From positions 1-51,888 of the forward strand of contig JAPOVY010000069.1 in assembly GCA_026707905.1 (NCBI GenBank): 51,888 nucleotides of DNA. The letters are read 5' to 3'. The first letter of the stretch is position 1. Every line of letters starts with the position of its first letter. Made by a program: the position numbers and the translations under genes. Positions 18,028-43,618 of this stretch are shown here, in pieces. The notes beneath the pieces were generated by a model. It had not been told where the DNA came from, did not search any database, and saw nothing but the letters and a program-made list of their open reading frames with translations. This DNA comes from Gammaproteobacteria bacterium (GTDB taxonomy: Bacteria; Pseudomonadota; Gammaproteobacteria; Pseudomonadales; Azotimanducaceae).

Positions 18028-18051
18028 TACATATTGTTTCGGGTATCCAAC

Positions 18052-24933: not shown

Positions 24934-26895
24934 TCAAGCAAGTGATTCTGAAAGCGAGTCTGTAGCGTATTTCACAACCGCATCCTCGCGAGCCATGCCA
25001 CTGGCAACGAGTGCTTCCAGCGAGTATATTGGCGTCAGCGCGAAGATTGTGTCAAGAGACGCAGCGAGCTCCTCTACTACAACATTGCCTTTCGGCGGCG
25101 AGACGCTCACTAATCGCTGCAAACAGTCCATCGCCAAACCAACACTAAAGACGTTTTTGTCGTCAGCTATCACCGTCCTCAGACGCGAAATTACATTCGT
25201 TAATTCGTCTCCGAGTTTGTCTGCGCCGTGTGAACACAACATGACCAGCGCCCAGAGCACGTTTTCTCGGACGACCGACCGAACGGGTTCAAAACGATCC
25301 TGCCCATAATCGAATCCAATGCCTTCGCACACGTCACAGTCGTCATTGGGTCTAACCATCTTGATACTGCGATTCTGAGCACGATCCATGCATAACCGAT
25401 TTACTTCTTGGTCGAGGCTTTGGGTCAGATAAGAAGCGATCAAGCTGATCGCTTTTTCGACATATAGACCGCGTTTAACAACACGACGACCAAGACAACC
25501 TAACGCATCCGCGGCGACAGAGCGAACGTACGCTGAGGCATCTTCGAGTAAGCATCGGCCAAGCCCATGGATGACTTGGTCAGTGTTGCTGCCAGCTGAA
25601 CCGAGTCCAAAGGCAGCCGCTTTTCGCACCCAACGTGCTTGAGAGGAGAGTCCGTTGAGGAATGAACCCGTCGCGTCTTCGCCAAAGGCGATCAAACCAT
25701 ATAGCGCTGCACGTCTCACGTTTTCGCGTTCGCTCTGTAAGGCGGTGTTTAAGACTGTGAGTGCAGCTTCTCGTCTTTCGTGTTGGGCTAGACGATACGC
25801 CGCACCGAGACGAATTGGTTCGTCGACATCGCCTTTGGATTCCAATCTCACCCCTAACTGACCAGGAGATTCTCCATCCTTGCCGTTCGCCGCGCCCAAT
25901 GATGGTCCTTTCCCCGTTCTGCTCCAGCTGTATTGATAACGCCACAGAGATTGAACGTCCTCATTCACACTAGCCAATTCTTGACGAGTCAATGCGTCTC
26001 GATGAGGTAGACTGAATTGCACAGAACATGCGGTTTCATCTAAATCCGGTTCTGTGGTGCGGTACAACCAGAATCGCCACATGAATCGGGGGTTCTCCTC
26101 CCACGTCCGCCAGTCGTCTATCCGGTGGTTGCGACGGTGCAAGAGATTGTGGGAATAGAGCACAACGCTTCCGGCCTTGAGTGGACCTACTTCGTAGGTT
26201 TGGCACAGCGGCCACTGTAGATTCAGAACAGCGTCGCGCATTCTGATGTCGTGCGCCGTTGTCTGTTCGACGATATCTTCAATGGCGTACTTTGAATTTG
26301 GACCACTTATGGGTACGTGTTCCATACGGTTCAATTGAAAGTCGAAATCCAAATGGTCAGCGCCTGCGAAGTTATCGTGATTCTCTTCGTGATTGAACGT
26401 CCAATATTGCGAATACGGTACGGTCGCGGTTGGCCCCATATCCGTTCTGACATCCTGGGGATAGTAGAGCATCTCGATCTGAACAGCGTGGTGATGTCGC
26501 TGTTTCCGCATGTTGTATGGTCCGTTGTCATCTTTATGCCAGTGCTGATCGTGTGACCCACTCATAAACGGTGTGTTGTGCGTGAAGGGCACGATCGCAT
26601 AGTTTTTCCCGATCAGCAATTCACATGCATCTCGAACACCTGGCGCGTTCGTCACGTTCATGATGTCTGGAATGTTCGTCGCAGTGATACGCTCTTTCGC
26701 TCGAAAAGCTTCGAGCTCCTTTTCGAAGATCTTATCGTGGGTCGACAGCGGAATTCCGAGTGATTCAGGCGCAAGTACGATCAATCCACGCGTAACAAAG
26801 TCCCTGACGATGTATTCGCGAGGTGTAGATTCGATTGGATTGGCGATCGAAGAGGAGCTCGATCCACCATCACTATTGGCGGCCTGATTTCGCAT
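24934..26895 (-). CDS. Phytanoyl-CoA dioxygenase family protein fused to HEAT repeats, copy 1
   Basis: This 653-residue protein combines two parts. Residues about 25-300 form a PhyH-type Fe(II)/2-oxoglutarate oxygenase: the metal triad is His120-x-Asp122 (QHWHKDDNG) and a distal His (249 or 253, YSHNLLHRRNHR), with an Arg for 2-oxoglutarate near 270-274 (PRFMWRFWLYR). Residues about 360-600 are HEAT-like helical repeats (RRAALYGLIAFGEDA, RKAAAFGLGSAG, RSVAADALGCLG). A CDVC pair (520-523) lies inside the repeats. The Asp in HxD rules against a halogenase. Copy 2 at 41343 has the same architecture and shares the RSxVRENV motif. It heads an operon with a sulfatase and an AHSA1-like protein. Oxidative attack on an alkyl or ester group is inferred; the HEAT part may bind a partner. 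Confidence 0.87.
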   Translation of the reverse strand: MRNQAANSDGGSSSSSIANPIESTPREYIVRDFVTRGLIVLAPESLGIPLSTHDKIFEKELEAFRAKERITATNIPDIMNVTNAPGVRDACELLIGKNYAIVPFTHNTPFMSGSHDQHWHKDDNGPYNMRKQRHHHAVQIEMLYYPQDVRTDMGPTATVPYSQYWTFNHEENHDNFAGADHLDFDFQLNRMEHVPISGPNSKYAIEDIVEQTTAHDIRMRDAVLNLQWPLCQTYEVGPLKAGSVVLYSHNLLHRRNHRIDDWRTWEENPRFMWRFWLYRTTEPDLDETACSVQFSLPHRDALTRQELASVNEDVQSLWRYQYSWSRTGKGPSLGAANGKDGESPGQLGVRLESKGDVDEPIRLGAAYRLAQHERREAALTVLNTALQSERENVRRAALYGLIAFGEDATGSFLNGLSSQARWVRKAAAFGLGSAGSNTDQVIHGLGRCLLEDASAYVRSVAADALGCLGRRVVKRGLYVEKAISLIASYLTQSLDQEVNRLCMDRAQNRSIKMVRPNDDCDVCEGIGFDYGQDRFEPVRSVVRENVLWALVMLCSHGADKLGDELTNVISRLRTVIADDKNVFSVGLAMDCLQRLVSVSPPKGNVVVEELAASLDTIFALTPIYSLEALVASGMAREDAVVKYATDSLSESLA

Positions 26896-27160
26896 ACGGC
26901 TTAGTTCTTTGACGTGTTACCATGATTGTGGCATCTCGTTAACCGCTTTAAATTGTGCTACTCAAAGTGAAGATACCTAACTGCGATATTTTGCTTAGTC
27001 CTATCGCGCTAACACATACGTGTCAGTTTCGTGCATCGACCGAACAGTCCGAAATCTATAAGAGATTCTGTGTCACAAAATCCGGCGTCCATATGATTTA
27101 CAGGATGCGTTACGGCGCGAAAGGCTTCCACTTAGTAAGACCATCCAGAAGAGTTAGGTA

Positions 27161-27916
27161 ATGAACCACGTAAAAGAAATCCTGCAAAGCGGCAAAACCG
27201 CCATTGGCACGACGGCTTCCCCGAATAGCGAGACACGGTTTCTCGCGGGTGCAGGTTTCGATTTTCTGTTATTCGATACGCAACATTCACCAGTCGAGAT
27301 AAAACAGCTGGGAGCGGCCATCGGAGCGATGCGTGGACGCACGGCGTCTCCCATCGTACGTGTTGGCGAAAATCGCGCCGATCAGATTTGTTACGCATTA
27401 GATGTTGGCGCTAGGGGCATCATCGTGCCTATGGTCAATTCAGCCGATGAAGCCCATGACGTCGTGAGTTTCTGCCGCTATCCATTCGCCGGTGTGCGCA
27501 GTTCTGCCGGAATGCGCGGTGAATGGGGGGAATTCAAAGACTATCGTGCATACATGGATGCCGTCAATGAACAGCTGGTGATTCTCCCGATGATCGAAAC
27601 TCAAGAAGCGATGGATAACCTCGACGAGATCGTCAAAGTGCCGGGTGTCGATGTAGTACTCGTCGGTCCATCCGACCTTTCGATCAATCTAGGTGTTCCG
27701 CTCGACTATACAAGCACCACCTACAAAGACGCGCTAACACGGATTGGTAGTACATGTCAGGATGCCGGAATAGCGGCGGGGATGTTCTTCGTTCCACCAG
27801 GCATCACGCCAGCTACACTAGTCGATCTCGGATTCCGGTTCTTCACGATGCCTTGGGAAGGCTGGGCTTCACGTGGTGTTACTGACGGTATCGCGGCTCT
27901 ACGAACGGAAAGGTGA
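27161..27916 (+). CDS. HpcH/HpaI-family class II aldolase
   Basis: The 251-residue protein is a metal-dependent aldolase of the HpcH/HpaI family. GFDFLLFDTQHSPVE supplies the catalytic His near residue 47; the metal ligands are Glu in LPMIETQEAMDNL (about 147) and Asp in VLVGPSDLSINLG (about 173). The family reversibly splits 4-hydroxy-2-keto acids to pyruvate or glyoxylate plus an aldehyde. The gene is divergent from the PhyH-HEAT/sulfatase operon with a 265-bp shared upstream region in which no clear operator is seen, so it may serve the same catabolic route. Confidence 0.92.
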   Translation: MNHVKEILQSGKTAIGTTASPNSETRFLAGAGFDFLLFDTQHSPVEIKQLGAAIGAMRGRTASPIVRVGENRADQICYALDVGARGIIVPMVNSADEAHDVVSFCRYPFAGVRSSAGMRGEWGEFKDYRAYMDAVNEQLVILPMIETQEAMDNLDEIVKVPGVDVVLVGPSDLSINLGVPLDYTSTTYKDALTRIGSTCQDAGIAAGMFFVPPGITPATLVDLGFRFFTMPWEGWASRGVTDGIAALRTER

Positions 27917-28149
27917 ATATTCGGCGGCAGGAATGGAATTAGAGGATCCTAAGTCTCGATTCGACCTAGCGAACTAACCTCGATTCCTCGAGACCTCTCG
28001 TTCGGAAGCACGTCAACATCGGTTCGAATCCTGATGTTGAAACGACCGCCAATCGTGATGCATAGCGACCTCTCTTTCTTGAACTGCCGGCTTCAGCCAA
28101 TTACAATAAAAGGTTAATCAACGCACAGCTCTTACCGCGGGAAGGTGTA

Positions 28150-31100
28150 ATGAGTGTTGCGTGCAGTGCAATGACTCCATTTCGTGGTATGAGTCCACCG
28201 AGTAGTGTGCGTCCTTTTCTCCCGTTACTCCTATGTTTCTCATACGGCTGTTTAGCAGCCGACGTATTCGCTCAAGACGAGGAAGACCAAGAAGTAACAG
28301 GCAACACATTCGGCATTCAAGCACCCATTAGTGACTTAGACGGACATCCAACGTTCGCTAGCCCACACTTTAATCCACTCGCGATTCACGGCGATCTCGT
28401 CTACGTCGTAAACACACCAGCCGATACGTTGGACGTAATCGATCCGACGTCAGACAGTGTTGTATTCCGCATCAATGTTGGCATTGATCCAGTCAGCGTC
28501 GTATCGAGACCAAACGCTGACGAAGTTTGGGTTTCGAACCACGTCTCTGACACGATCAGTGTGATCGACACCGACCCAGAAAGTGCGTTCTATCATCAAA
28601 TTGTTGCGACGATACAAGACGTCGATCGCTTTTCGTTCAGTACGAATTTCGACGAACCGGTCGGTATCGCATTTACTCAAGATGGAAAGAAGGCGTACGT
28701 AGCGTTAGGGCCGTCAAATCAGGTCGCAGTGATCGATGCTGAAACCCGTGTAGTTACCAAACACTTGAAGATAAATGCGCAGGATCCTCGAGCGTTAGTC
28801 GTTCGTGGCACGCGACTCTATGTGACGGCATTTGAATCAGGGAATACCACGCAGCTATCCGGATGTAATCCCGGACAGATTGACGGTTCTATGTGCACCT
28901 ATGACGCAGTGCAGCATACTCATACCACGAATAACGTGCTGTCCCTTGGTATCGATGTTGATATTGTCAGAAATCCGAAAGTGCCGGATCGAGACTTATT
29001 TGTATTCGACACACGAAGCGATCGTCTAGTCGATCAGGTGGAAGGCACCGGTACGTTGCTCTACGGATTGGCAGTCGATGGCAGACGCAATGTATACATC
29101 GCTCAAGCGGAAGCCAGAAACGATGCCAATGGACTGGCCGGTACACAAGACCACGGTCTCGCCGAAATGGAAAATCGCGCCTTTCTGAATCAGATCACAC
29201 GCGTCAATTGCAGCGATCGAAATTGCGACGATCCTGAGATCTTCGAACTTGAACCGCTCCCACCTGAACACCCAGACACAGGCGCGGCGCTGGCGACCCC
29301 GTTCGCCGTAGAAATAACTAAAGACAACACCACGCTGATAGGTACGGCTGCCGGTTCAAACAAGCTGTTCGTGTTTGATGTCGAGTCGGGTAGTGTTACC
29401 GGACGAGTCGATGTTGGTGCAGTACCGCGAGGTGTAAAGCTCGTATACGACGAAGGTGACGGCTTATCCGAAGCGTGGGTGATGAATGCCGTCTCGAACA
29501 CGATTACGCGTGTCGATCTATCGACTCTTTCAGAGCCGTCCATCATGGCCACTATCAAGCTCGAAGATCCCACTCCCGACCAGATGAAACTTGGTCGCAT
29601 CGCATTTAACGATGCGAATGCATCAACGACGGGGACTTTCTCATGCGATAGTTGCCACCCGGACAACAACGTCGATCAGCTCGTTTGGGTTCTTGATACG
29701 CCGCCTTGCGATCAAAGTCATCCAGGCTGTACCCAAATCCCCCCACGCTTGACGATGCCGGTGCGTGGACTTCGCGATACTCAGCCGTACCACTGGGACG
29801 GTATTCCGGGCGATCCATACGGAGGAATAAACGTGCAAAGCCTCTGGGACCCTGTTGAGCCTAACTGCGAACTCGACGACCCAGAATCTTGTACTCGATT
29901 CCTCGTTGACGGCAGCTTGGGAACGACCATGTGCGACGTTACCGACTGCCCGACTAACGAAGAAGATAAAGGCGGCGCGCTTGATATTGAGGAACGTGAC
30001 GCGCTCGCTCACTACATCCTAAACGTACCTTTTCCGCCGGCACCCAATCGTCCGTTCGACAATGAACTTTCAGCTTCCGCGAAAGAAGGCATTTTCGAAT
30101 TCAATTTCCTGAATGATTCCGGCACCGATACGGGTGCGCAAACGTGTGGAGCATGTCACAAACCCCCATTCCTGACGACGACGAATACGCCTTCAGCTCA
30201 AAACGTCAACGCAGGGGTCGGATCGTTCAATGGCATGGATGCACCGACCTGGCGGGGCGCATACGACCGTTGGATTGTCACACCTCAAGCTCGGTTCAAC
30301 GTTATTGATTTGATCGAGCGCATCGGTATGGACTTAGGTGCGGATATTCCCGAACAGGAAGTCTGGTTCCACGCAGGCGCACGAACCCAAGCAAATTGGG
30401 ATATGGTGCTTGAGTACAGTACGGGCTTCTCAGGTACGTTTGCGCGACAAGCGACGTTCAATTCTTCACTGGCTGACGATAGCGTTCATACCGATATGAC
30501 GGACCGTATCGCAGCCACACTCATCGCTGCGGCAGACAACGGTGCTGTTCTCTTGCACGCTGACGGGCTTTACATTGACCATGATGGCGACGTGGAAGCG
30601 AGTGCAGATTCAGGGCTCGACGACGATTCCACAGGCGACACGACTTCGGAACACGTATTCGGGCTCGCGCTGGAATACGTTGATGGCGAATGGCGAGATC
30701 GATCAGATAGCGATATCACTTATGAGCTTGTCGACTTACGAGACCAAGCGGTCGCAGGTGACCTCGTGCTCACGTTCACCGGTCGAATTGGACAAAACGT
30801 GCTACCAGATCAGCCACAGCCAGCAATTTGGCCGTTCTGGAACAGATTTGGCAACCTCTACGACGGCGTCGTACAGCAATCGCCGACTGTAGAAATAACC
30901 TACCTCACGGATGACTTAACGCTAACGCTTAAAGGGCGTCATATCGAGGACGACGCATTAATCTTCATCAACGGGCATGCGGTTTCAGGAACAGTAACGT
31001 GTGTGAACGAAATGCTTCCTTCATGTGAAGATGAGCGGATCGTTGTGACACTCGATGAAGCGCCCGTTCGATATGGTTTGAATTTCCTTCAGATTCAAAA

Positions 31101-31659
31101 TGAAGACGGCATGATCAGTAACGATGTCATGTTCTTCTCTCAGGAAGTGGACAAAACTGCTCGGGCGGGGAACCTAATCGTAAGTGGAGGAACGTTCGAT
31201 CGATTTATCTTCCCATTGCAGGAATTCTGGAATACCGTTGAGTCTCAAGGAAACAACGTTTGGATTGACAACGGCTTCATTAACGTCTCAATTGCACGCG
31301 TTAATACCGGTGAGCCATGGCGAGCTCAGATCAGTCACCACGTTTCGATCGACGAAGACCAAGAGTATTCGGTCTGCTTCCGCGCCAAGGCAAACTCAGC
31401 ACGGAGCATTGACGTTTACGTTGATCAAAGCATGCACGAATGGCAACGGTTGTTTACGGAAAACGTGGATTTGCGGAACTACTGGCAGAATTTCAAACAC
31501 ACGTTTACAGCTGACCGGACCGATATCACGGCACGAGTCGCTTTTGACTTAGCGGGTGCGTCCCCTTCAGTACAGCTAGACAACATTGGACTCTACGAAG
31601 GCGATACGTGCGGTACGCCAGATGTTACGACGCCTGTTGGATTTCATAGCAGTCAATAA
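28150..31659 (+). CDS. Large secreted beta-propeller / cytochrome c / CBM-like protein
   Basis: An 1,169-residue exported protein (GAAGG upstream; hydrophobic PFLPLLLCFSYGCLA in a long signal region to about residue 40). Residues about 55-470 form a YncE/YVTN-like beta-propeller (VYVVNTPADTLDVIDPTSD, VWVSNHVSDTISVIDTDPE). Two c-type heme motifs follow: CDSCH (499-503) and CGACH (666-670), in a di-heme peroxidase-like region with DAPTWRGAYDRW. Residues about 900-1000 look Ig-like, and about 1030-1155 resemble a CBM4/9 galactose-binding domain (VSIDEDQEYSVCFRAKANS, VQLDNIGLYEGD). It probably acts as an extracellular or periplasmic redox protein at a carbohydrate surface; the reaction is unknown. 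It is a single-gene unit. Confidence 0.8.
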   Translation: MSVACSAMTPFRGMSPPSSVRPFLPLLLCFSYGCLAADVFAQDEEDQEVTGNTFGIQAPISDLDGHPTFASPHFNPLAIHGDLVYVVNTPADTLDVIDPTSDSVVFRINVGIDPVSVVSRPNADEVWVSNHVSDTISVIDTDPESAFYHQIVATIQDVDRFSFSTNFDEPVGIAFTQDGKKAYVALGPSNQVAVIDAETRVVTKHLKINAQDPRALVVRGTRLYVTAFESGNTTQLSGCNPGQIDGSMCTYDAVQHTHTTNNVLSLGIDVDIVRNPKVPDRDLFVFDTRSDRLVDQVEGTGTLLYGLAVDGRRNVYIAQAEARNDANGLAGTQDHGLAEMENRAFLNQITRVNCSDRNCDDPEIFELEPLPPEHPDTGAALATPFAVEITKDNTTLIGTAAGSNKLFVFDVESGSVTGRVDVGAVPRGVKLVYDEGDGLSEAWVMNAVSNTITRVDLSTLSEPSIMATIKLEDPTPDQMKLGRIAFNDANASTTGTFSCDSCHPDNNVDQLVWVLDTPPCDQSHPGCTQIPPRLTMPVRGLRDTQPYHWDGIPGDPYGGINVQSLWDPVEPNCELDDPESCTRFLVDGSLGTTMCDVTDCPTNEEDKGGALDIEERDALAHYILNVPFPPAPNRPFDNELSASAKEGIFEFNFLNDSGTDTGAQTCGACHKPPFLTTTNTPSAQNVNAGVGSFNGMDAPTWRGAYDRWIVTPQARFNVIDLIERIGMDLGADIPEQEVWFHAGARTQANWDMVLEYSTGFSGTFARQATFNSSLADDSVHTDMTDRIAATLIAAADNGAVLLHADGLYIDHDGDVEASADSGLDDDSTGDTTSEHVFGLALEYVDGEWRDRSDSDITYELVDLRDQAVAGDLVLTFTGRIGQNVLPDQPQPAIWPFWNRFGNLYDGVVQQSPTVEITYLTDDLTLTLKGRHIEDDALIFINGHAVSGTVTCVNEMLPSCEDERIVVTLDEAPVRYGLNFLQIQNEDGMISNDVMFFSQEVDKTARAGNLIVSGGTFDRFIFPLQEFWNTVESQGNNVWIDNGFINVSIARVNTGEPWRAQISHHVSIDEDQEYSVCFRAKANSARSIDVYVDQSMHEWQRLFTENVDLRNYWQNFKHTFTADRTDITARVAFDLAGASPSVQLDNIGLYEGDTCGTPDVTTPVGFHSSQ

Positions 31660-31817
31660 ACGTCTCTAATTGTTCTCGGAAATAACTAGCGAACACGTCG
31701 TATGCTCGCTCGATACTAGCATCGTTTTCTAGTTCATCAAACCTCGTAACTGCAATCGACCGGACGAACGAACCGACACGGTGCGTCACGCATGGTTAGT
31801 AAACGCTATAGTCGAAT

Positions 31818-33365
31818 TCAAAGAGCTCCAATCGCGCCCTGCACACTCTTATCGTCCCATAACGCACGCAATTCCTCAAGTGGCGCATCCTCTACCGAAA
31901 CCGGCAGACCGAATATACCAGTGGATCGCTTCTCTTCGTCGTAAGGGGACCAAGTAGATAACGAGTCCGTAGCGGGATTGCCCGTGTGCGCGAACGCCAA
32001 CCAGGCATCCATTGTGGCTTCCGCAAGTTCGATGTGTGCCGGTTCACCACCGAAGAAACCGCGTGTTCCATCATTCAGATTGTGTGTGCCGAATACATAA
32101 CCAATATCGATAGCATGGCAAGATTTCAAAATACCACCGTACGCGGGGGACTCGACCGTGAACAGATACTGATATGCATCCTTCAGTCGCGAGTTCAAAG
32201 TCTCCGCTAGCACGATCCCCGGCATACGAAACCCACGATCGGATTCCAATACTTGCCACACGTCGGCAGGTGTTACGTCAGAACCGTTACGAGAGAGAAT
32301 CTCCTGGTACCCCTGTCCGAGTGCGCGTAAGTCCGGGCGCCCATTTTTTGGTTCAAGTCGACGCTCAAAATCATCTTGCGACATCGCCTTGATCGATGGG
32401 TCCATGACGCTAAAGAGTAACCACTCATCGCGAGTGCAACCCACCAATACAGAGACATCATCCGCAGAACCATTCGCTACGCAGTCGATAGGTCGGGCGG
32501 GTAGTTGTGCGCCGTCGATGCAGGGCTCGTAACACATCCAAGGCAACTTCGCTGAAACCTCAGCGCCAACTCGAGTGAGTTCCTCTGCAGATAGCTCAAG
32601 CAGCTTGCTCAAATTGCTGTTAGGCGATATTTCTAACGCGGCAAGTAATTGCGATGCAACATCGTTTGATTGAGCGAGCGTATTGGCTGTATGAGCAGCA
32701 CCACTCTGAGGGATCGCTTTGTGGAAGAGACCTTTCGCTTCACGCAAAGCTAAGAGTGCACCAACACTCATACCTCCAGCAGATTCACCGAAAATCGTGA
32801 CGTTATTCGGATCACCACCAAATCGAGCGATATTGTCCCGAACCCATTCCAACGCGAAGGCCTGATCAAGCAGTCCTTCATTGCCAGTTGAAGGTATTCG
32901 CCCACCGGTTACTTAATTTAAGTTCAAGAATCCCAACACGCCCAATCTGTAATTGATCGTAACGACAACGGCATTGCCGCGACGGGACAATATCGAACCA
33001 TCGTAAATCGGCGATGAACCCGATCCCGTGACAAACGCACCACCGTGAATCCAGACCATAACCGGTCTCGCTTCATTGTCTGCGCTCGGTGTCCAGACGT
33101 TCAAACTAAGACAGTCTTCTGCCAATACCGGCGGCGTTGCACCCTGCGCAAACGAAAGCGCCCCCTGTTCGGCTGCAACGATTTGCCACGATATTGGTCC
33201 AAACTCAGTGGCTTGTCGCACCCCGGTCCAGCTTTCTGGCGGTTTCGGCGCCGACCAACGATCCTCCCCGGTCGGCGCGGCCGCGTACGGAATGTTCTTA
33301 AAAGACAGAACACCGTCAGCGTTAACACCAGCGACTGTACCGTACGAGGTTTCAACTTGAGTCAT
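31818..33365 (-). pseudogene. Type B carboxylesterase interrupted by one in-frame stop codon
   Basis: The reading frame is intact from 33365 to 31818 (516 codons) except for a TAA at 32913-32915. Upstream lies the family N-terminus ([46 protein letters not shown]). Downstream, in the same frame, come [20 protein letters not shown] and [17 protein letters not shown] with the catalytic Ser, and [14 protein letters not shown] with the catalytic His. Relatives usually have Glu before VTGGRIP, so one GAA-to-TAA change explains the break. Without read-through only a 150-residue fragment lacking the Ser would be made. The rest of the gene shows no other damage, so the lesion is very recent or a sequencing error. 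Confidence 0.88.
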
Positions 33366-33449
33366 GACTCGGAATCTAAAAAGTAAATGTTCGCGTCGGG
33401 GATTATTCGGACGACGCTAGCGCTGATTAATGAGCACTTTCGCGATCGC

Positions 33450-34301: not shown

Positions 34302-34408
34302 GATACTACGCGTGATGTGAGATGCCGGAAATATGAACGTCGACTGAAATGAATTTCAAGCAAATACGTGACACAATTTTCATAGTTCGCTCAAGAGCAA
34401 AGTCATCG

Positions 34409-35254
34409 TCACTTTAACCATAGGGTTTCATTGAAGACTTCTGTTAATTCATTCGCTCGACCGACCCAAGAGTGACTCGTGTGCAGACGTAAATCACCTA
34501 TTCTCAAGCTGTAAACGATCGGTACTCCGGTGGGGAAGTAGTTGTCCTGCGCGTATTTATGTACGTCCTGAAATCCTGTTAGTTCATGTATTTCCAATGT
34601 GGGTCGATTCCGATTACGCGGATCCGCATTTTTAACTTCCTCTACCGCATTTAACATCGATTGCATAAGCTCAAATGGCCGCTCGAAATAGTATGCGTTC
34701 TCCGCTCTATTAAGTACCATCGAGACATTTCGATCCACGGTAACACCGTGTCTCGCCACTGAGTAGAACATTGTTATGGAACTAGGCAACTCGATTGCAT
34801 CGTCTTCCGCAAGGAGGTGCACATTGAACTTCTCCATAAACCAAAGTGGCCACCGCCGCTCATCGACTCGAAGTCCTTCGCCAGTCGCATGCTGAAGCAA
34901 GACCTTAGGTAATGTCTGAATCGGTTTGAACTTAAGAGGGATGAAATCGCCGATGGCGATCGGTCTGTCAAACGGATAAGTACGGTTCGAAATCGGGATA
35001 TTCTCAGTTTCTCCGCGCTGAATCGCTTCGGACAAAGCAGCTAAGATTGCTTGTGATCGACTTTGAATTTCAGAGATTTCGTCCGGAGTTAGGTCTTCCG
35101 GCGCTCTTGGCTCATGTACCTCACTACCCTCTTCGAACACATGTCCAAATAGTGCGGATCCGCAAAGAAAAACAACGGAAGCGTAGATCAGGCCGAACTG
35201 CCATTTCTTCAATTTTGTAAATCTACTGAATGACACTAAGTCGAATTTGTCCAT
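34409..35254 (-). CDS. Membrane-anchored protein of unknown function
   Basis: I do not recognise it. The ATG at 35254 gives 281 residues and places a single transmembrane or signal-anchor segment at about residues 18-38 (WQFGLIYASVVFLCGSALFG); the frame extends to 35389 but the extra 45 residues look non-coding. The mature part has an acidic linker, a PFDRPIAIGDFIPLKF segment and a C-terminal PTGVPIVYSLRIGDLRLHTSHSW region without known catalytic motifs. It lies between a PhyH gene (107 bp downstream) and a sulfatase gene (235 bp upstream), all on the minus strand, so co-expression is possible. Periplasmic exposure is likely. Confidence 0.65.
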   Translation of the reverse strand: MDKFDLVSFSRFTKLKKWQFGLIYASVVFLCGSALFGHVFEEGSEVHEPRAPEDLTPDEISEIQSRSQAILAALSEAIQRGETENIPISNRTYPFDRPIAIGDFIPLKFKPIQTLPKVLLQHATGEGLRVDERRWPLWFMEKFNVHLLAEDDAIELPSSITMFYSVARHGVTVDRNVSMVLNRAENAYYFERPFELMQSMLNAVEEVKNADPRNRNRPTLEIHELTGFQDVHKYAQDNYFPTGVPIVYSLRIGDLRLHTSHSWVGRANELTEVFNETLWLK

Positions 35255-35489
35255 CGTCGTTATCGATGATACCCAATCGTAATAATCGGGTTTATCGTCG
35301 CAGATTTCGCCATGCCGATGGATCCGCAACATTCGACTTTTGCGCCCGAGACACGTAGCCGAAACCACCTTCGGAGAAGCAAGGGACAAGCATGTGGTGT
35401 TGTTGATCCATCATGCCTAAATCAAATTTGTCTTGTCACTCAATAGACAATCTGCCAATAAACCCTCTCGCCCTTTCCTAGTTCATCTT

Positions 35490-37007
35490 CTACGCGATCC
35501 CTAGACGATCGAACTGTTCGTGTGGCGCTTCAACGGCATTCAATCCTTCATGGAGCAATTCAATCATGTCCTTTTCATCGCCAGCTCCTAGGCGATTTTC
35601 GTCCTCGGCGGGATCAAGATCAATGTTGTACAAATGGTGTTCATTGACACGAGGTCTAGCACACCAGTAGGGCAACAGATCACCTTCCTGAAACGGTTGC
35701 CGTATGACAGGTACATCCGAGCCAGGCATATAGTCCAGCGTCGCACGCATGTCTGGTTTCGGCCACAGACGATGGATTCCTGCGTACAACATTGTCGACC
35801 AGCGATTGGACCACATGGATAGAGGGAATCCGTTGTCAACCGGTGCCCGTGCGTACTTACGATGACCGTCGTAGACCATCACCCAATTGCCAAAGACGCC
35901 CCCGATTGCCCATTCCCTGACATGCTCCGCGTCACCGGTGAGGAGCGGCACAAGCGAAACGCCGTGTGTGTGATGATCCGGTTCAATATCAAATACGTCA
36001 CAGAGGGTTGCGTTGATATCGACGTTGGTAGTTAGTGCATCGATATGTTTCGACTCAACGCCCGGATACGCGATGTAGAGCGGCGTATGCCCGAGCGGTT
36101 CATATTGCGGTACCTGTGGTTTTCCCCAAATGTCCTTTTCGCCAAGATAGTGACCGTGGTCGGTACAGAGAATCACTATTGTGTCGCGCCACAGATCGCT
36201 CCTATCGAGCGCATCGAGAACTTTACCGAACCAGTGGTCGATCATGGAGAGCTTCGAACCATAGTTACATCGAATGTGACTGCCTTCGCGTTCTGTTATT
36301 ACGCCGCGCTCAATATTTCGTACGCCATATGGAGGCCAGATGATGCGTGGACCCTCCCATGTTGGGTCATATCGATCCATCCATGGTGTCGGAGAATCGA
36401 ATGGTTCGTGCGGATCGAACTCGTCGACATATAGCAGAAATCGATCGTGAAAGTCTGAGTTTAAGTCAATCCAGTTCGCCGTTGCATGCATCGTTTTCGG
36501 TCCTGGAAAATCCAGTTCCTCCCGAAAATACGTACGCGAACGGTCGTAATGCCACTCGCGACTACCTGCAGGTAACGCGGGTGCTCCAATCCAAGACGGA
36601 TCTGGTCTCGATTTCCATGGATCGTTCTCGTGTCCGCGCAGGTATTCCCATGCAAAGAAATCTGTGTGATAGTTCTCGCCACCTGTTTCAAATAGGTGTG
36701 GATGATCGGTGAATAGCATCGTATTCACACCCGCTTCACGCAGATGAGCCGTAATCGGGCGTTCCCACAGTTCGATCGAACCCCACGGTTTCCATAGAAA
36801 GTCCAAAGCACCGCAGAGTAGATCGTGTCGGGCTGGCATGCAGGGAAACGAGCCGATGAAGTGCCGATTGAATCGAACGGCACGTTGCGCGAAACGATCT
36901 ATGTTTGGTGTGTCGAACTCGTTTCCACCGTAGTCACCAATCATGTGTCGGTTCAAGCTATCAAGCAAGATCACAATCGCGTTTTTGGGCTTTGGTAAAG
37001 ATGGCAT
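35490..37007 (-). CDS. Sulfatase-family hydrolase (C-x-P-A-R type)
   Basis: The ATG at 37007 gives 505 residues; a TTG four codons earlier is a weaker choice. NAIVILLDSLNRHMIGDYGG carries N-terminal metal ligands and FIGSFPCMPARHDLLCG holds the formylglycine-type cysteine (Cys56) in a C-x-P-A-R context, found in a distinct sulfatase subgroup that continues with LWKPWGS. ILCTDHGHYLGEKDIWGKP near residue 285 completes the metal site. No signal peptide is seen. It is divergent from the PhyH gene at 37108 (100-bp shared promoter region), echoing the PhyH-HEAT/sulfatase operon at 23.4-26.9 kb. It could also hydrolyse phosphonate or phosphate esters. Confidence 0.92.
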   Translation of the reverse strand: MPSLPKPKNAIVILLDSLNRHMIGDYGGNEFDTPNIDRFAQRAVRFNRHFIGSFPCMPARHDLLCGALDFLWKPWGSIELWERPITAHLREAGVNTMLFTDHPHLFETGGENYHTDFFAWEYLRGHENDPWKSRPDPSWIGAPALPAGSREWHYDRSRTYFREELDFPGPKTMHATANWIDLNSDFHDRFLLYVDEFDPHEPFDSPTPWMDRYDPTWEGPRIIWPPYGVRNIERGVITEREGSHIRCNYGSKLSMIDHWFGKVLDALDRSDLWRDTIVILCTDHGHYLGEKDIWGKPQVPQYEPLGHTPLYIAYPGVESKHIDALTTNVDINATLCDVFDIEPDHHTHGVSLVPLLTGDAEHVREWAIGGVFGNWVMVYDGHRKYARAPVDNGFPLSMWSNRWSTMLYAGIHRLWPKPDMRATLDYMPGSDVPVIRQPFQEGDLLPYWCARPRVNEHHLYNIDLDPAEDENRLGAGDEKDMIELLHEGLNAVEAPHEQFDRLGIA

Positions 37008-37107
37008 CACGCGTCTCAAATTCTGTGATTACGAATGTGCTCGGACATGCTCTCAACACATACACTTGAATAATACGTTGGCGTTTTAATACGAAACGAG
37101 GACCCTA

Positions 37108-37977
37108 ATGAGCTCAAAACCTGATACAGCACGTGTATTTGGTGAGGATATTCATATCCCTGGTTTAGACGGTTGGGTCTCGAGTATTGCAGCTAACGGA
37201 TACACCTTAATTCCTGATTGGCTCACGTCCAAGCGCGTCCGAAAACTAGGCGAGGATCTGCGTCGAGAGGTCAATCCAATTCGTGAACTCATGCCGCCTG
37301 ATTTCACCACTGTTCGTGCTCACAACTTACTTGCGAAGACTCGATGCGTCGATGACTTGGTCTGCGATCCTCGACTAGTAGCGCTTGTTCACGGCGTGTT
37401 AGGACCGTACATTCAGATATCTGTAGTGGCGATGTTTGATCTATTACCGGGGGCTAAAGCACAAGGGTTACATCAGGATGACGGTCTATGGCCGATTCCG
37501 CGCCCTCACCCACCGTTTGTCGTCAATGCGGTCATAGCGGTCGACGAATTCACCAAAGAGAACGGCGCAACGCAGCTTGTCCCTAAATCTCATCTGTGGC
37601 ATGACCAAACCGTCAAGCAACCACCTGAAGTCACGCCAATTCAGGTTGAAATGAAACCCGGTACGATGCTCATTTGGACGGGTGCGCTTTGGCATGGCGG
37701 TGGCGCTAACAATACAAATGAAAGTCGCCTCGCCATAGACATTAACTTCAATCTGTCCTATCTTGCTCAACAAGAGAACCAATACGTCGGTGTACCTCGA
37801 TCAGAAGTAGAAAAAATGCCAGAACGTTTGCAAAGATTGATCGGCTATAAGTTCGGTTTGAATCACGTTGGTCCTGGCATGGTCGATCTTCGCGATCCAC
37901 TTCGCATGAGAGATCGAGTCAGTTACCAATACGATGTGAACGCCGACGACGTACCTAACATCGGCTCATTAACCTGA
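37108..37977 (+). CDS. Phytanoyl-CoA dioxygenase family protein
   Basis: A 289-residue Fe(II)/2-oxoglutarate oxygenase with a complete active site: His122-x-Asp124 (GLHQDDGLWP), distal His196 (GALWHGGGANN) and Arg207 (ESRLAIDINF); GATQLVPKSHLW is the family core strand. GAGGA precedes the ATG. Proteins like this hydroxylate or oxidatively dealkylate small molecules in the cytoplasm. It is followed after 30 bp by an O-methyltransferase gene, clearly co-transcribed, and is divergent from a sulfatase gene. Hydroxylation plus methylation, or demethylation with methyl recycling, of one substrate is a reasonable inference. Confidence 0.92.
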   Translation: MSSKPDTARVFGEDIHIPGLDGWVSSIAANGYTLIPDWLTSKRVRKLGEDLRREVNPIRELMPPDFTTVRAHNLLAKTRCVDDLVCDPRLVALVHGVLGPYIQISVVAMFDLLPGAKAQGLHQDDGLWPIPRPHPPFVVNAVIAVDEFTKENGATQLVPKSHLWHDQTVKQPPEVTPIQVEMKPGTMLIWTGALWHGGGANNTNESRLAIDINFNLSYLAQQENQYVGVPRSEVEKMPERLQRLIGYKFGLNHVGPGMVDLRDPLRMRDRVSYQYDVNADDVPNIGSLT

Positions 37978-38007
37978 TTTACTAACTCACTCACGCACGG
38001 AGATTTC

Positions 38008-38670
38008 ATGTCTTCTTCTACCATCGTCGTCGATGACCGCATTGACGCTTATCTTCTAAAACAAGGAAGACCTGAATCGGAAACTGCGGCCGCGCTTCGC
38101 GAGGCAACTGCGCCTATGCCAGCAGCGATGATGCAAGTATCGCCACTGCAAGGTGCATTCATGTCCTGGCTTGTAGGTTTTATGAATGTAGAGAACGCCC
38201 TAGAAGTCGGCACATTTACCGGATACAGCGCTTTGTGTGTCGCCGAAGCACTACCAGATCACGGAAAACTGATCGCCTGTGACGTAAGTGAAGAATGGAC
38301 AAGGATGGCAAAAGAGTACTGGGAGCGTGGGGGTGTCGCTCACAAGATCGACTTACAGCTCAGACCTGCGGCTGAAACGCTCGACTCGCTCATCTCTGAC
38401 GAACGAGAGGGCTCATTCGACTTCGCGTTTATCGATGCGGACAAACCTAATTACGACGTCTATTACGAGCGTTGCTTGCAACTGTTACGCGTCGGGGGTA
38501 TCGTCGCCGTCGACAACGTGTTGTGGGGAGGTCGGGCAGCGAACAAACTGGCAATTGATGAATCCACGAGAGCCATACGCGCGCTCAATAAGAAAATCCA
38601 GAACGACGATCGCGTTAGTAACGTTATGCTGCCAATCGGCGACGGTCTAACTCTGGCGACCAAGTTCTAA
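38008..38670 (+). CDS. Class I SAM-dependent O-methyltransferase (caffeoyl-CoA/catechol type)
   Basis: The 220-residue length and motifs fit cation-dependent O-methyltransferases: ALEVGTFTGYSALCVAEALP binds SAM (about residues 64-83), FAFIDADKPNYDVYYERCL carries the metal-binding Asp (about 140-158), and GGIVAVDNVLWGGR follows. GGAG sits seven bases before the ATG. The enzyme methylates vicinal hydroxyls of catechol-like substrates, or other hydroxyls in bacteria. It is the second gene of the PhyH-OMT operon; a strong hairpin closes the unit downstream. Confidence 0.93.
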   Translation: MSSSTIVVDDRIDAYLLKQGRPESETAAALREATAPMPAAMMQVSPLQGAFMSWLVGFMNVENALEVGTFTGYSALCVAEALPDHGKLIACDVSEEWTRMAKEYWERGGVAHKIDLQLRPAAETLDSLISDEREGSFDFAFIDADKPNYDVYYERCLQLLRVGGIVAVDNVLWGGRAANKLAIDESTRAIRALNKKIQNDDRVSNVMLPIGDGLTLATKF

Positions 38671-38702
38671 TCACACCGGCTCGCGCCAATCTACCTTCGC
38701 TG

Positions 38703-38742
38703 GATGCGTGAACGCTGCACCTAACGTGCGCGTTCACGCATC
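38703..38742. terminator. Long bidirectional terminator hairpin
   Basis: GATGCGTGAACG (38703-38714) pairs perfectly with CGTTCACGCATC (38731-38742); one more C-G pair, a bulged T and a 4-bp GCAC/GTGC stem continue inward to a CTAAC loop. TTTGTCTT follows on the plus strand. It lies between the convergent O-methyltransferase and PhoX-like genes. Confidence 0.8.
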
Positions 38743-38750
38743 GGTTTGTC

Positions 38751-40226
38751 TTAAAGAGTCGACCAAGGTCCTTCGATCGCGAAAGTGACGCCAGGTGATT
38801 GAAGATTCGCATATAACGTTTGACCATCTGCCGAGAACGTCGCACCCGCCCACTCGGAACGACGGTAATCTTGAGCCTCTATTCCCGGTCGTCCCGGCAC
38901 GCCACTCGTAAGGTCCGCGTTGTTTTCCGCAAACGTAATGACCTCGTGTCCGGGTTGCTTCGCAATTAACAGGCGACAGCCATACTTCAACGTATTGTCT
39001 GGGTGACTTACACCGCCGCCGTCCTCACAAAGGACGATCATGCCATTCACAGGATTAACTGCAATATTGTCGATCGCATCTGCTTCGTCTTCAGAACCAG
39101 ACGCATAGATACATACGAGTCGCTCGATACTTGCGTCATACAGCCAGACACTACCGGTCCCAGCCGGTCCACCTGCCGTATCAATCCAATAGAGCCGCCC
39201 TTCATACTCCCATATACCTTCGCCACGGCTAAAGTAAGCGCCACCGTCTGCTTCACCCTGTAAGAACGGACCTGACTTGCCTTCACCCATTAAGTTTTCG
39301 AAGCCGTTGCCGTAACTATTCAGTATTTCAGGATCGGCATCTGGGTCATCGATAGGTGCCCATTCGACATCGAATGCGGCGCCTTCTGGCGATGCAGTCA
39401 GATTTACGTTTGCTTTTCCTTTGACTCTTAGCATCGACAGCTTTCCACCTTCATCAAGTGCACCGACTTTCCTCTCTAGATTGTTCGGTACGAATCGATA
39501 AAAGCCGGAATTCGGACCGTTATCCTCCGTCAAGTAGGCATTACCAGTCGTTGTATCAATCGCGACTGCTTCGTGTCGAAAGAACCCCATGTCCTTAATC
39601 GGCGCGCCAGAGGCCTTTCCTAAGTGAGGGGGTGGCACCTCAAAAACGTAACCGTGGTCTTTTGCGCTTGACCCATCCGGCAGTCTAATGTTGCTACCTC
39701 GAAATGAAGTTTCTTCACACGTCAACCACGTACCCCATGGCGTTGGTCCACCTGCACAGTTGATCATCGTACCGCCAATCAACGGGACGGTTTCCTTAAA
39801 TCGACCTTCTCGAAGTACGACGCCCGTCACACCACCTCCGATTCCGAGTGGTGATCCCACCCGCTGAAGAACCTGCGCTGGCAACTGAAAGTCATCGTAA
39901 ACGGGTACACCTTCCCCTTCAATCGTATCGGCGTAGTACCTTTCGTGATTTCTTAGAAGGACGATTTCGGATTCGTCCGCGCCTTCAACAACTGCCATTC
40001 CGTCATGGCGATCGGGTACTAGACCACCGGTAGTCATCGAATCGCCGGTCCAGCTCATACTTCGGTACGTGAATCCCTCCGGTAACTGAATTAGCTCAAG
40101 ACCTGTTTCTGCATCAACAGTCGGCCGTAGCTGCGAAGCGCCACGTACAACCGGTGAAGCAAACACTAGTGGCGCCGTGCCTACTCCTAGAAGAGTCTTA
40201 CCAAGTAACTCTCGGCGACTAACCAT
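38751..40226 (-). CDS. PhoX-like (DUF839) protein with Tat signal
   Basis: A 491-residue exported protein. The N-terminus MVSRRELLGKTLLGVGTAPLV is a twin-arginine (Tat) signal, implying folding and cofactor loading in the cytoplasm before export. The body matches the PhoX/DUF839 beta-propeller family: LLRNHERYY, GGTMINCAGGPTPWGTWLTCEE near residue 152, FFRHEAVAIDTTTGNAYLTED and FSADGQTLYANLQSPGVTF near the end. PhoX proteins are Ca/Fe-dependent alkaline phosphatases; the length here is shorter than classical PhoX, so phosphatase activity is likely but not assured. It is divergent from heme A synthase with 76 bp between. Confidence 0.88.
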   Translation of the reverse strand: MVSRRELLGKTLLGVGTAPLVFASPVVRGASQLRPTVDAETGLELIQLPEGFTYRSMSWTGDSMTTGGLVPDRHDGMAVVEGADESEIVLLRNHERYYADTIEGEGVPVYDDFQLPAQVLQRVGSPLGIGGGVTGVVLREGRFKETVPLIGGTMINCAGGPTPWGTWLTCEETSFRGSNIRLPDGSSAKDHGYVFEVPPPHLGKASGAPIKDMGFFRHEAVAIDTTTGNAYLTEDNGPNSGFYRFVPNNLERKVGALDEGGKLSMLRVKGKANVNLTASPEGAAFDVEWAPIDDPDADPEILNSYGNGFENLMGEGKSGPFLQGEADGGAYFSRGEGIWEYEGRLYWIDTAGGPAGTGSVWLYDASIERLVCIYASGSEDEADAIDNIAVNPVNGMIVLCEDGGGVSHPDNTLKYGCRLLIAKQPGHEVITFAENNADLTSGVPGRPGIEAQDYRRSEWAGATFSADGQTLYANLQSPGVTFAIEGPWSTL

Positions 40227-40302
40227 ACCCCCGCTCCTAGAATTTGATGAATGGCTGTGACTGTCATTCTATAAATCACCTGTATTCATCTCGTTAAATA
40301 AA

Positions 40303-41286
40303 TTGACTGGATCGAGTGACCCGTCGACCCGAGTAGTTCCCTATCTGACAATCGCCGCCTTTCTATTAGGAATGCTCGTCGTCGTACTTGGCGCATACAC
40401 ACGGCTTGTCGACGCGGGACTTGGGTGCCCTGATTGGCCAGGCTGCTATGGCTTTCTGACGGTACCACAATCCGAAGTGGATATCGCAACGGCGAATGAG
40501 CGATTTCCAGAGATGCCTCTCGAAGCAGACAAAGCGTGGCCAGAAATGGTGCATCGTTACGCTGCAACGCTACTAGGCGTTGTGATTCTGGCAATACTCT
40601 TTACGGCTATCGTCAATAAGTCGCCACTTACCTACCCGATTGTTTTAACTGTTCTCGTCATCGCGCAAGGGATTTTTGGCGCGTGGACTGTTACGCTGAA
40701 ACTATGGCCGCAAGTGGTAACCGCGCATCTATTGGGTGGATTTGCCACGGTCGCTTTGCTCGGGCTCTACCTGATCAAACAAAAGGTTGTGCCGCCGATT
40801 GATCTGCCATTTTCGGCGTTTCGTGCCGCGTTACTCGTACTCTGTGTATTGATACTGCAAATCACACTGGGTGGTTGGACGTCGTCAAACTACGCCGCAT
40901 TGGCTTGCCCAGATTTTCCGCTGTGCCACGGGCAATTAATACCAGACATGGCTTGGTTCAGAGGATTCAACATATTTCAAGATATCGGCCCGAATTACCT
41001 AGGCGGCGAGCTATCTAACGACGCGCGAATCGCGATTCAATTCAGCCATCGACTGGTGGCGCTCGTACTTACCGCCATTACGATCTGGCTGATCATTCGC
41101 TTGAAAGGAAATGTCCGCTGGTTACTAGGTGCCGTATTAGCAACGCAATTCGCACTCGGTGTATCGAATGTGTGGTTCGATCTTCCCTTGGCGGTCGCAA
41201 CACTTCATAATCTTGGAGCCCTTGTGTATCTGCTCGTAATCGTCTATATCCTTTACGGTACGCGCACCCGTAGCTCAGTTGGATAG
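40303..41286 (+). CDS. ctaA: Heme A synthase (CtaA/COX15)
   Basis: The frame starts at a TTG (40303) without a clear ribosome site; earlier in-frame codons offer no better start. The 327 residues contain about eight membrane segments and the conserved [21 protein letters not shown] near residue 30, with the four heme-ligand histidines in [22 protein letters not shown] and TLHNLGA. It oxidises heme O to heme A for cytochrome c oxidase. No oxidase subunits are nearby, so the gene is detached from its usual cluster. The last eight codons lie within tRNA-Arg: the stop TAG is formed by the D-loop sequence, so the C-terminal tail TRTRSSVG is dictated by the tRNA. Confidence 0.92.
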
Positions 41287-41340
41287 AGCGTTTGCCTCCG
41301 GAGCAAAAGGTCACAGGTTCGAATCCTGTCGGGTGTGCCA
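41264..41340 (+). tRNA. tRNA-Arg (anticodon CCG)
   Basis: A full 77-nt cloverleaf: acceptor GCACCCG pairs with CGGGTGT (first pair G-U), D arm with GCTCAGTTGGATAGAGC, anticodon stem TTTGC/GCAAA with loop CTCCGGA (anticodon CCG, reading CGG), variable AGGTC, T arm ACAGG-TTCGAAT-CCTGT, discriminator G and encoded CCA (41338-41340). It overlaps the heme A synthase 3' end by 23 bp and ends two bases before the convergent PhyH-HEAT stop codon. Confidence 0.97.
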
Positions 41341-41342
41341 AT

Positions 41343-42923
41343 TCAAACGACGTATCGTCGATCTGCTAGATATTCAATAAGATCGGCTAACCAGGGTTCG
41401 CTAAGGTTTCGTACGGAACGCCGAATCGCCATGAACAGAAGACTCTTAGCGTATCGATCATGTTCTACGATCGCGTAGTGAAGCGTTTTTTCGATTTCTG
41501 ACGACGTCAATTGAGTCATCGTTAGCGCTAGCGCAACATTCTCCCGTACCGTTGATCGTGACATTCCACCATTGTTCGTATTGTCTGGTTCTACATCATG
41601 ATCTAGTCGTGCGATCAAGCGATCGTTAACATCAAGCGCGTTCGCGTGCGTGCGCAGCAGAATGCCTAAGGCGTACGCAGCATTTGACCTGACCAAGTCA
41701 TCAATATCGTTCTCTACTCGGTCAATCAGCCAATCGACTGCCATTTGATCGCAGCACATGGCTTCACGAAGCGCTAAGACCGTTGCTCGTCTAATCGGCG
41801 CACGATTGTCCGACATCATTCCTTCAAATTCGCGACTGTCGATCGAATTTACAAGACCTAACGCGTAGCCAGCAGCGCGTCTCACAGCTTCCTGATCGTG
41901 CGCGATGAACGAAATCAACGCGTGACGGATGCGATCGTCAACATTTGCCAATAAACCTAACTCATACGCGATTCGTATGCGTTCCGCATCCGTGCCCGCA
42001 TCAACAAGCATGTCAGTCGTAGTGTCATTGCGAGAAAGATCCCAATTAGGCGTCTCGCCGTTCAACCAGTACCAATTTCTCTCAACGATCCGTGCGATCT
42101 TCGCATTGTCGATCTGAGGTACTGGGACAGACTCGCTACGCCTCGTCGGTGTTGAGGGTGATGTCGCTCGATACAAGTAGAACTTGTACATGAAGCGTCG
42201 ACCATCAAAGTCAGGTTCCTGACGCGTACCGCGATGAGAAAGATCGTACGACGCAAGAATCGCGCCGCCGCACGGTACCTCCAGCTTCCTGCGCTCCAAG
42301 TTAGGAACACCCCACGTGTCTGCAACTTTTTGGATGTAGTTATCTCGTTCTTGAAGGGACGCGGTTGTAGGATCGAAGCGCTTCAAACTTCGTCCTAGTG
42401 GGTCACCACGGTGCCAGGTACCGTCGGGAAGCTCGTAGTCGTTCGTCCAATACTGGGTTCCCGGCAGTACCTCCGTGGGTCCGGTGGTCTGATCCGTCGG
42501 CTGAGGATAGTAGAAGAGCATGGCCCAGTCTGGACGATGGGACCGATAGTGGCCGCGGTCATTCCACGGTAAATTACCGTCTTGGTGGAAGAACTGGTCA
42601 TTCGCCGAGGACTCATGGATAAAGTCGTGTGGATAGAGCTGCCAGTCTTCTCCTAGGATGCTTGTGATCGCACCATCTATCGTCGGACTACGCAACAGTA
42701 ACTCGGCATCGGGAATGCGCTGACGCAGGTTGTCTGCGATGACCTTGATGTGCGGCGCAGCACCTTGACTCGCTGCGCCTTGTGCCATTCCGTAGGTCCA
42801 GCACGCCGCTTCGAACATACGCTGATGAAACGCTTGATCTAGCTCAGTTGGATTAAGTACGACATACCCGTCCTCCAGATACTGAACGATCTGTTGGTTA
42901 TTTAGAAGTATGGAATCTATCAT
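41343..42923 (-). CDS. Phytanoyl-CoA dioxygenase family protein fused to HEAT repeats, copy 2
   Basis: A 526-residue relative of the protein at 24934. The oxygenase half has His113-x-Asp115 ([10 protein letters not shown]), distal His230 ([10 protein letters not shown]) and Arg242/243 ([12 protein letters not shown]). The shared segment with [18 protein letters not shown] mirrors MLYYP and MGPTATVPYSQYWT in copy 1. Residues about 315-520 are HEAT-like repeats ([37 protein letters not shown]), including [12 protein letters not shown], also present in copy 1 as RSVVRENVLWAL. The start overlaps the stop of the HAD hydrolase gene as ATGA, so both are made together. Substrate unknown; the repeat half may be a docking or regulatory module. 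Confidence 0.88.
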
Positions 42924-43618
42924 CCGCAGAGCTGATCAGCTAAATCCGTGTAACTTTCGGCTTGAATTTCGAAACCTGACGAATCGCCTTCTGATCCCAT
43001 TTCCCAAACTTTAGGCTTAACGTGCGCTGCCTTCAAGCCCGCGCGTTGTGCCGCAGCTAAATCAGGCGGATGACACGCGACCATCATAGTTTCGGACGGT
43101 TCAACACCAAAGAGTCTCGCCGCCTTCTGGTATGCCTCGGCTTCCGGTTTGTAGACGCCAAGGAATTCACACGACAAGTACGCATCCCAGTCGATACCTG
43201 CGTGCTTCGAGGAGTCTACAACGATCGACAACGAGAGCACAGTTAGGATAGAGACGACGTAGCGTTCCCTTAGGCGTACGAGCGCTTCCGGGACGTCCTC
43301 CCATACGTTCATACGATGCCACGCGGAGTTCAAACGTTGTTTGTCATTCTCAGTTAGTTCTAGTTCGTTGTATTGTTCACCCAGTTCGTCCAAGACCGCA
43401 AGATGAATCTGGTCCGCGTTGCGCCACGAAAGATCTCCCTTCCGTACTTCGGCGAGTGTCTCGAACATTCTGCGACGCCATTGAAAACAAAACGCAGGAA
43501 CATCTAACTCGATACGCCGCTCGTCCGCGAGCTCTTTGACAGCCCCTTGCGTGGACGACTGCCAATCAAATATGCTACCACCCACATCAAATGTCAGTAC
43601 CTTTACCTTACTAAGCAT
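42920..43618 (-). CDS. HAD-superfamily hydrolase, haloacid dehalogenase type II-like
   Basis: The 232-residue protein has the HAD nucleophile in VLTFDVGGSIFDW (Asp11), a helical cap (about 20-100), the motif II region SILTVLSLSIVVD and the lysine/acid motifs GVYKPEAEAYQKAARLFG and MMVACHPPDLAAAQRAG. The layout is that of L-2-haloacid dehalogenases, but the usual FDxxGT reads FDVGGS, so phosphatase activity is as likely as dehalogenation. Its stop overlaps the PhyH-HEAT start (ATGA), an operon that pairs a hydrolase with an oxygenase in the same way as the sulfatase pairs with copy 1. Confidence 0.88.
   Translation of the reverse strand: MLSKVKVLTFDVGGSIFDWQSSTQGAVKELADERRIELDVPAFCFQWRRRMFETLAEVRKGDLSWRNADQIHLAVLDELGEQYNELELTENDKQRLNSAWHRMNVWEDVPEALVRLRERYVVSILTVLSLSIVVDSSKHAGIDWDAYLSCEFLGVYKPEAEAYQKAARLFGVEPSETMMVACHPPDLAAAQRAGLKAAHVKPKVWEMGSEGDSSGFEIQAESYTDLADQLCG

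Follow-up and report, generated by a model that had tools for sequence, protein, structure and literature searches.

PhyH-like oxygenases fused to HEAT repeats form a multi-copy gammaproteobacterial family whose gene partners are mostly local

Two oxygenase-HEAT fusion genes and their architecture

The stretch analysed here, hereafter the window, comprises 51,888 nucleotides of contig JAPOVY010000069.1 from an Azotimanducaceae genome (assembly GCA_026707905.1) and carries two genes, P0001 and P0002, each encoding a PhyH-like oxygenase domain followed by a C-terminal HEAT-repeat solenoid (Table 1). An earlier sequence-only reading had placed open reading frames (ORFs) with this layout at the same positions on the minus strand, and both are borne out. 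That reading regarded them as a pair; the common layout is real, but the genome has seven full-length copies of the fusion. P0001 and P0002 share 24% identity over 460 aa in a pairwise protein alignment (E 5e-22) and are therefore full-length homologues. Chance resemblance was considered as well and is ruled out by this alignment and by the family-wide comparison. The string RSxVRENV, recognized earlier in the repeats of both proteins, is found at residues 539-546 of P0001 and 456-463 of P0002, and its second Arg, being retained in 74 of 81 copies, marks a family-wide repeat position; residues 498, 502 and 523-524 (P0002 numbering) are further conserved positions of the HEAT half.

The wider family comprises 85 fusion places across 21 genomes, all from one gammaproteobacterial family, of which 84 were analysed (locus L121 of genome G652 was left out); five of these copies reach a contig end (L102, L139, L149, L156 and L158) and L156 lacks the N-terminal half. 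The HxD...H site that had been read as intact is so in both window proteins, and a distal Arg is also present (R270 in P0001, R243 in P0002), which we take to be the 2-oxoglutarate Arg. In P0002 numbering, H113 and D115 are found in 83/83 copies, the copy without an N-terminal half being excluded from this count, and H230 and R243 in 84/84. An invariant Trp lies in the linker between the domains (Table 1). Thus, the invariant active site and linker sharply define a family of dozens of copies.

The N-terminal halves of P0001 and P0002 score 17.2 and 15.1 bits, respectively, against PF05721 (PhyH), below its gathering cut-off of 22 bits, and we therefore call them PhyH-like rather than members of PF05721. 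Among the other five full-length copies of the genome, three pass this cut-off (31.3, 28.5 and 27.5 bits) and two miss it (21.2 and 20.4 bits). AlphaFold models (pTM 0.88 and 0.79) show an oxygenase part, with a predicted double-stranded beta-helix fold, and a HEAT solenoid in both proteins, in agreement with the C-terminal helical repeats anticipated from sequence. Pfam likewise recognizes the repeats, with HEAT (38.9 bits, cut-off 23.5) and HEAT_2 (39.1 bits, cut-off 27.7) passing in P0001, and HEAT_2 (34.8 bits, cut-off 27.7) and HEAT_EZ (27.5 bits, cut-off 27) passing in P0002, where HEAT misses narrowly (22.3 against 23.5 bits). The best sequence matches of both tails in the PDB are designed alphaRep proteins. 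In all nine clades of the family the HEAT half evolves faster than the oxygenase head, which would suit variable docking without proving it.

Further PhyH-type genes lie nearby. One gene without HEAT repeats and a weak PhyH-like ORF bring the PhyH-type genes in the window to four over about 27 kb; the HEAT-less relative closest to the fusions among the neighbourhoods searched lies on the same contig as P0001 and P0002 (Table 1).

Table 1. Positions of the fusion genes, their domains and other features (window coordinates unless a locus is named)
Feature	Position	Strand	Remarks
P0001, PhyH-like oxygenase-HEAT fusion, 653 aa	24934..26895	-	ORF, Pfam, AlphaFold model
P0001 catalytic (double-stranded beta-helix) domain, ~residues 24-283	26047..26826	-	H120, D122, H253, R270
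P0001 HEAT solenoid, ~residues 344-652	24940..25866	-	
P0002, PhyH-like oxygenase-HEAT fusion, 526 aa	41343..42923	-	ORF, Pfam, AlphaFold model
P0002 catalytic domain, ~residues 4-256	42156..42914	-	H113, D115, H230, R243
P0002 interdomain linker Trp286 codon	42066..42068	-	Trp in 84/84 copies analysed
P0002 HEAT solenoid, ~residues 304-521	41361..42014	-	
P0003, sulfatase	23383..24897	-	CTPSR motif; adjoins fusion in 4/11 P0001-clade loci
P0004, AHSA1/SRPBCC-like protein	22710..23390	-	sub-threshold family match
P0005, type II HAD (haloacid dehalogenase/epoxide hydrolase-like)	42920..43618	-	4-bp overlap with P0002
PhyH-family gene without HEAT	50237..51397	+	72.8 bits, well above Pfam cut-off
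Weak PhyH-like ORF, 289 aa	37108..37977	+	E 2.8e-9 to fusion profile
HEAT-less relative of the fusions	L022 15418-16344 (own contig C38, ~66.4-67.3 kb)		E 9e-35
Second sulfatase	35490..37019	-	PF00884, 103 bits; distinct from P0003
TonB-dependent receptor	14312..16483	+	close to the next
TonB-dependent receptor	18034..20244	+	
1169-aa protein	28150..31659	+	no Pfam match at 1e-8; homologue at same place in two other species
Fusion-esterase-ECF-FecR-TonB run	L126 9348-14803		
Fusion-esterase-ECF-FecR-TonB run	L137 2125-8026		

Distribution of the fusion family

The fusion is restricted to one bacterial family in the samples searched. Within the genus (E 1e-20), fusions are absent from six of the 12 other genomes and number three to seven in each of the remaining six; five further rows of this search are HEAT-less PhyH proteins, found in five genomes including that of the window. 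Across the bacterial family, fusions were found in 17/61 genomes and 10/37 genera, with a maximum of ten copies in a genome, showing that the fusion has radiated into many paralogues. A capped sample of the order yielded four positive genomes out of 244, all from the same family and none elsewhere, and the likewise capped phylum (1/398) and class (1/369) samples were positive only for the window's own genome; these order, phylum and class sweeps scored at most six, three and four candidates per genome, respectively, such that distant or lower-ranked members could escape. A wide distribution was accordingly rejected, the positives of all three samples falling in a single family. A contig scan covering 84,980 species at one genome per species, with patterns derived by aligning three of the nine clades, gave 74 loci, all in records of Pseudomonadota metagenome-assembled genomes and 71 of them assigned to Gammaproteobacteria. 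Some of the record names resemble those of what are presumably sponge and open-ocean projects. Among viral contigs there was a single weak match, to the oxygenase part only, in a 268-aa ORF; a phage search with P0002 and a plasmid search with P0013 found nothing.

The architecture also admits a reading in which the solenoid presents a macromolecule, a protein or an RNA complex, to the oxygenase for a regulatory or translational modification. The fold matches of P0001 and P0002 (VIA-align over the Foldseek top 1000, beyond which other families may exist) are, among those listed, mostly natural-product tailoring oxygenases, and one match listed lies outside small-molecule chemistry. With small-molecule enzymes thus making up most of the folds listed, and with divergent copies that reach ten in a genome, neighbours of catabolic type (see below) and no fusion in half of the congeners, which accessory metabolism fits better, we regard a macromolecular target as quite improbable.

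Gene neighbourhoods across clades and genera

A same-strand ORF lies within 60 bp of the fusion in 59 of the 84 copies, although some ORF starts are over-extended upstream in G+C-rich genomes, so that short distances and overlaps in those genomes are approximate. Copies of the same clade and genus commonly share a neighbour within three genes (63/92 pairs), which is partly plain synteny, since opposite-strand genes are also common to these loci. For copies of the same clade from different genera the figure is 41/272 pairs, 33 of them from one clade, the E clade (33/69), against a between-clade background of 18/488 pairs within a genus and 116/2448 across genera. The P0001 clade shows no common neighbour in 39 cross-genus pairs, and the P0002 clade shows one in 3/25 pairs, all from a single cluster read from its sequence as SDR and not HAD. 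The remaining fusions of the window's genome adjoin TonB receptors, an amidase, enoyl-CoA hydratases, or a PhyH gene together with a kinase.

The sequence-only reading had proposed a module of an oxygenase and a hydrolase, to be checked by searching for the full-length architecture and tabulating its neighbours. This search reveals a multi-copy family with mostly local partners, and does not support a general module of this kind, given the other gene types beside copies in the same genome and the low cross-genus sharing in both window clades; the same partner was not found in orthologues from other genera. The separate possibility that every member of the family keeps a sulfatase or a HAD enzyme as its partner is ruled out by the cross-genus counts and by the separate occurrence of these genes. 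Partners thus change locally, and the hydrolase genes beside P0001 and P0002 appear to have joined them locally and not to be fixed partners.

The Pfam scan of partners covered 72 near, operon-like clusters and matched 92 families, none of them in more than three clusters. These families bear on whether the fusions could be tailoring enzymes of secondary metabolism, as the fold matches listed would suggest. Among 25 of the 92 families there is no polyketide or peptide synthetase, and the same 25 include TonB receptors, amidase, esterase and epoxide-hydrolase families and crotonases, and a tailoring role appears about as improbable as a macromolecular target.

The E clade provides the one strong neighbour link that holds across genera. 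A crotonase-family (enoyl-CoA-hydratase-family) gene lies within three genes of the fusion in 22/35 E-clade loci and a DsbA-fold gene in 15/35, several of these loci being truncated where a contig ends, whereas the other eight clades together have a crotonase near 6/95 loci and a DsbA-fold gene near none of 95. Crotonases and human PhyH act on CoA thioesters, and a CoA thioester is therefore a good first guess for the E-clade substrate. Two other clades have a TonB receptor adjoining the fusion (4/8 and 4/7 loci), and in another (2/7 loci) the fusion is followed by an esterase, an ECF sigma factor, a FecR homologue and a TonB receptor, a run that looks like a regulated uptake-and-breakdown unit. 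In the window itself, two neighbouring TonB-dependent receptors, a second sulfatase and a 1169-aa protein are also encoded (Table 1).

The hydrolase genes of the window

The sequence-only reading coupled P0001 with the sulfatase P0003 and the AHSA1-like P0004, and P0002 with the HAD hydrolase P0005, each oxygenase and hydrolase acting on one compound. Taken as successive steps, this could be, for example, hydroxylation followed by desulfation or by dehalogenation or epoxide opening. The operon geometry in the window is indeed tight and favours such coupling. P0003 starts 36 bp downstream of P0001 and overlaps P0004 by 8 bp; that operon stands as far as its geometry goes, but the AHSA1 match of P0004 is sub-threshold (E 0.044), its core being common to two homologues. 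P0003 itself has the CTPSR motif and the Sulfatase profile (PF00884, 98.8 bits against a cut-off of 25) of a type I sulfatase, and CTPSR is, we assume, the CxPxR formylglycine site.

Orthologues of P0003 (at least 65% identity) were found in ten genomes over two draws (8/61 and 5/19, three in both) and adjoin a P0001-type fusion in four. In the sister species G004, which is 87% complete and has no P0001-type fusion, the sulfatase and AHSA1-like genes form one group with the two genes that follow, and the oxygenase is missing. Elsewhere the arrangement varies: G003, G007, G637, G667 and G652 have a P0001-type fusion but no sulfatase, G673 and G660 have both but apart, and G647 and G669 have the sulfatase in a run with CoA-transferase-like and crotonase-like genes. 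As sulfatase and fusion each occur without the other, the sulfatase appears to be a breakdown gene in its own right that became attached locally. Neighbours varying at random among homologues had been named as grounds for abandoning the coupling, and by this rule that of P0001 with the sulfatase fails across genera.

The link between P0005 and P0002 is the better of the two. Orthologues of P0005 occur in 3/19 relatives (the window's genome counted), exactly those that carry an orthologue of P0002. In G004, the CtaA gene directly adjoins the gene that follows, c15, and both P0002 and the HAD gene are missing from between them, as expected of a co-gained pair, and the pair is also absent from the fetched CtaA regions of G003, G007, G002, G005 and G012. 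In G006, the P0002 orthologue is separated from the HAD gene by two small ORFs that on their sequences resemble an antitoxin and a PIN toxin (L101 9808-10414). The coupling of P0002 with the HAD gene thus holds as regards the overlap and the co-occurrence with the P0002 orthologue, but the HAD gene is not kept across genera.

HAD genes are also seen near other fusions. Searching 1861 neighbourhood ORFs with P0005 and a second query, c101, gave 11 HAD homologues, none more than four genes away from a fusion; they come from three clades and include type II homologues near X-clade copies. Some loci repeat the same genome, and c101 was chosen because it is a neighbour, such that the two hits it contributes do not count as independent evidence. 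With P0005 as the only query these two are found as distant HADs (E ~1e-7), located 20-23 bp from P0001-type fusions on the opposite strand (L106 9794-10489 in G003 and L112 9872-10567 in G007), together with a further weak hit, in L135 (E 1.2e-5), which was not counted. The G003 protein scores 101 bits against the TIGR01428 cut-off of 125.4 and falls below it, whereas the two X-clade HADs tested pass. The 17 fusion genomes have 25 strong type II HAD hits (at least 98 bits), of which five are no more than about 4 kb from a fusion, where 0.25 are expected; collapsed to genera this becomes 2/9 (p 0.024), for a family picked after looking. At least one strong hit is present in 15/17 fusion genomes against 11/44 others, an enrichment that may only reflect lifestyle or kinship.

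P0005 scores 125.9 bits for TIGR01428, just above the cut-off. Compared with three aligned homologues it keeps the position of the Asp nucleophile and has LTVLSLS in place of their LSN segments, a departure in what we take, from the usual meaning of HAD motifs, to be motif II, and its activity is uncertain. Together with the opposite-strand location of the HADs near other clades, the distance of those in G003 and G007 and the cross-genus neighbour counts, this makes sequential action of oxygenase and hydrolase on one compound unlikely. For the two window genes, a haloacid or an epoxide as substrate of P0002 is the most specific testable idea.

A proposed role for the fusions

Based on these observations, we lean, with slightly better than even confidence, towards the fusions being paralogous PhyH-like Fe(II)/2-oxoglutarate hydroxylases that serve different breakdown routes, with the HEAT half as a dock. 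The joining of a PhyH-like oxygenase to a HEAT solenoid plausibly happened a single time and early, after which the fusion multiplied in one lineage. Each copy would most likely hydroxylate a small organic compound of its own, free or as the CoA thioester, and neighbouring genes would supply other steps of the route, namely uptake through TonB receptors and cleavage by an amidase, an esterase, a sulfatase, a HAD enzyme or a crotonase. The HEAT half, tied to the catalytic half via the W-x-W linker, would most likely be the docking site for a substrate, carrier or partner enzyme. The data fit accessory breakdown enzymes in which one catalytic platform meets many substrates and locally changing partners. 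A bolder version, of an enzyme family not described before in which the solenoid is a permanent dock, each of up to ten copies per genome serves a different route and the branch that keeps a crotonase pair and DsbA-fold isomerase-like genes across genera represents a new oxygenase-dependent pathway of acyl-CoA degradation, is conceivable but on balance doubtful.

Setting the specificity of a small-molecule oxygenase through a repeat scaffold would be unusual, and the crotonase-linked branch, with its probable CoA-thioester substrate, offers a directly testable case. PhyH-type oxygenases are very numerous in some bacteria and mostly without an assigned function, for example in the Poribacteria described in PMC3909097.

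Comparison with known systems

A literature search of titles and abstracts of open-licence papers found no paper on the oxygenase-HEAT fusion, in keeping with the earlier remark that no described function of it was known. Relative to the PF05721 family, which includes human PhyH, PHYHD1, bacterial PhnY, EctD and tailoring enzymes, the fusions are distinguished by the C-terminal HEAT solenoid and the invariant linker Trp; P0001 and P0002 also miss the Pfam cut-off, and P0002 is only about 11-17% identical to the fold matches listed. A paper on PHYHD1 shows that PhyH-type enzymes, one of them from a metagenome, can have an unexpected role in breakdown. The tails resemble HEAT and PBS-lyase-type HEAT repeats (PF02985, PF13646, PF03130), with HEAT_2 in both and HEAT in P0001, but here they are joined to an oxygenase. 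P0005 resembles the type II haloacid dehalogenase/cis-epoxysuccinate hydrolase group (TIGR01428), to which its best PDB matches also belong, and differs from the three aligned homologues in motif II and the HPPD segment and from the group in its link to an oxygenase-HEAT fusion. A parallel in gene number is offered by the sponge-associated Poribacteria (PMC3909097), whose genomes are reported to hold unusually large sets of divergent PhyH-type genes, with phnZ of the HD phosphohydrolase family next to some of them; these bacteria belong to another phylum, and the main text of that paper does not mention HEAT repeats.

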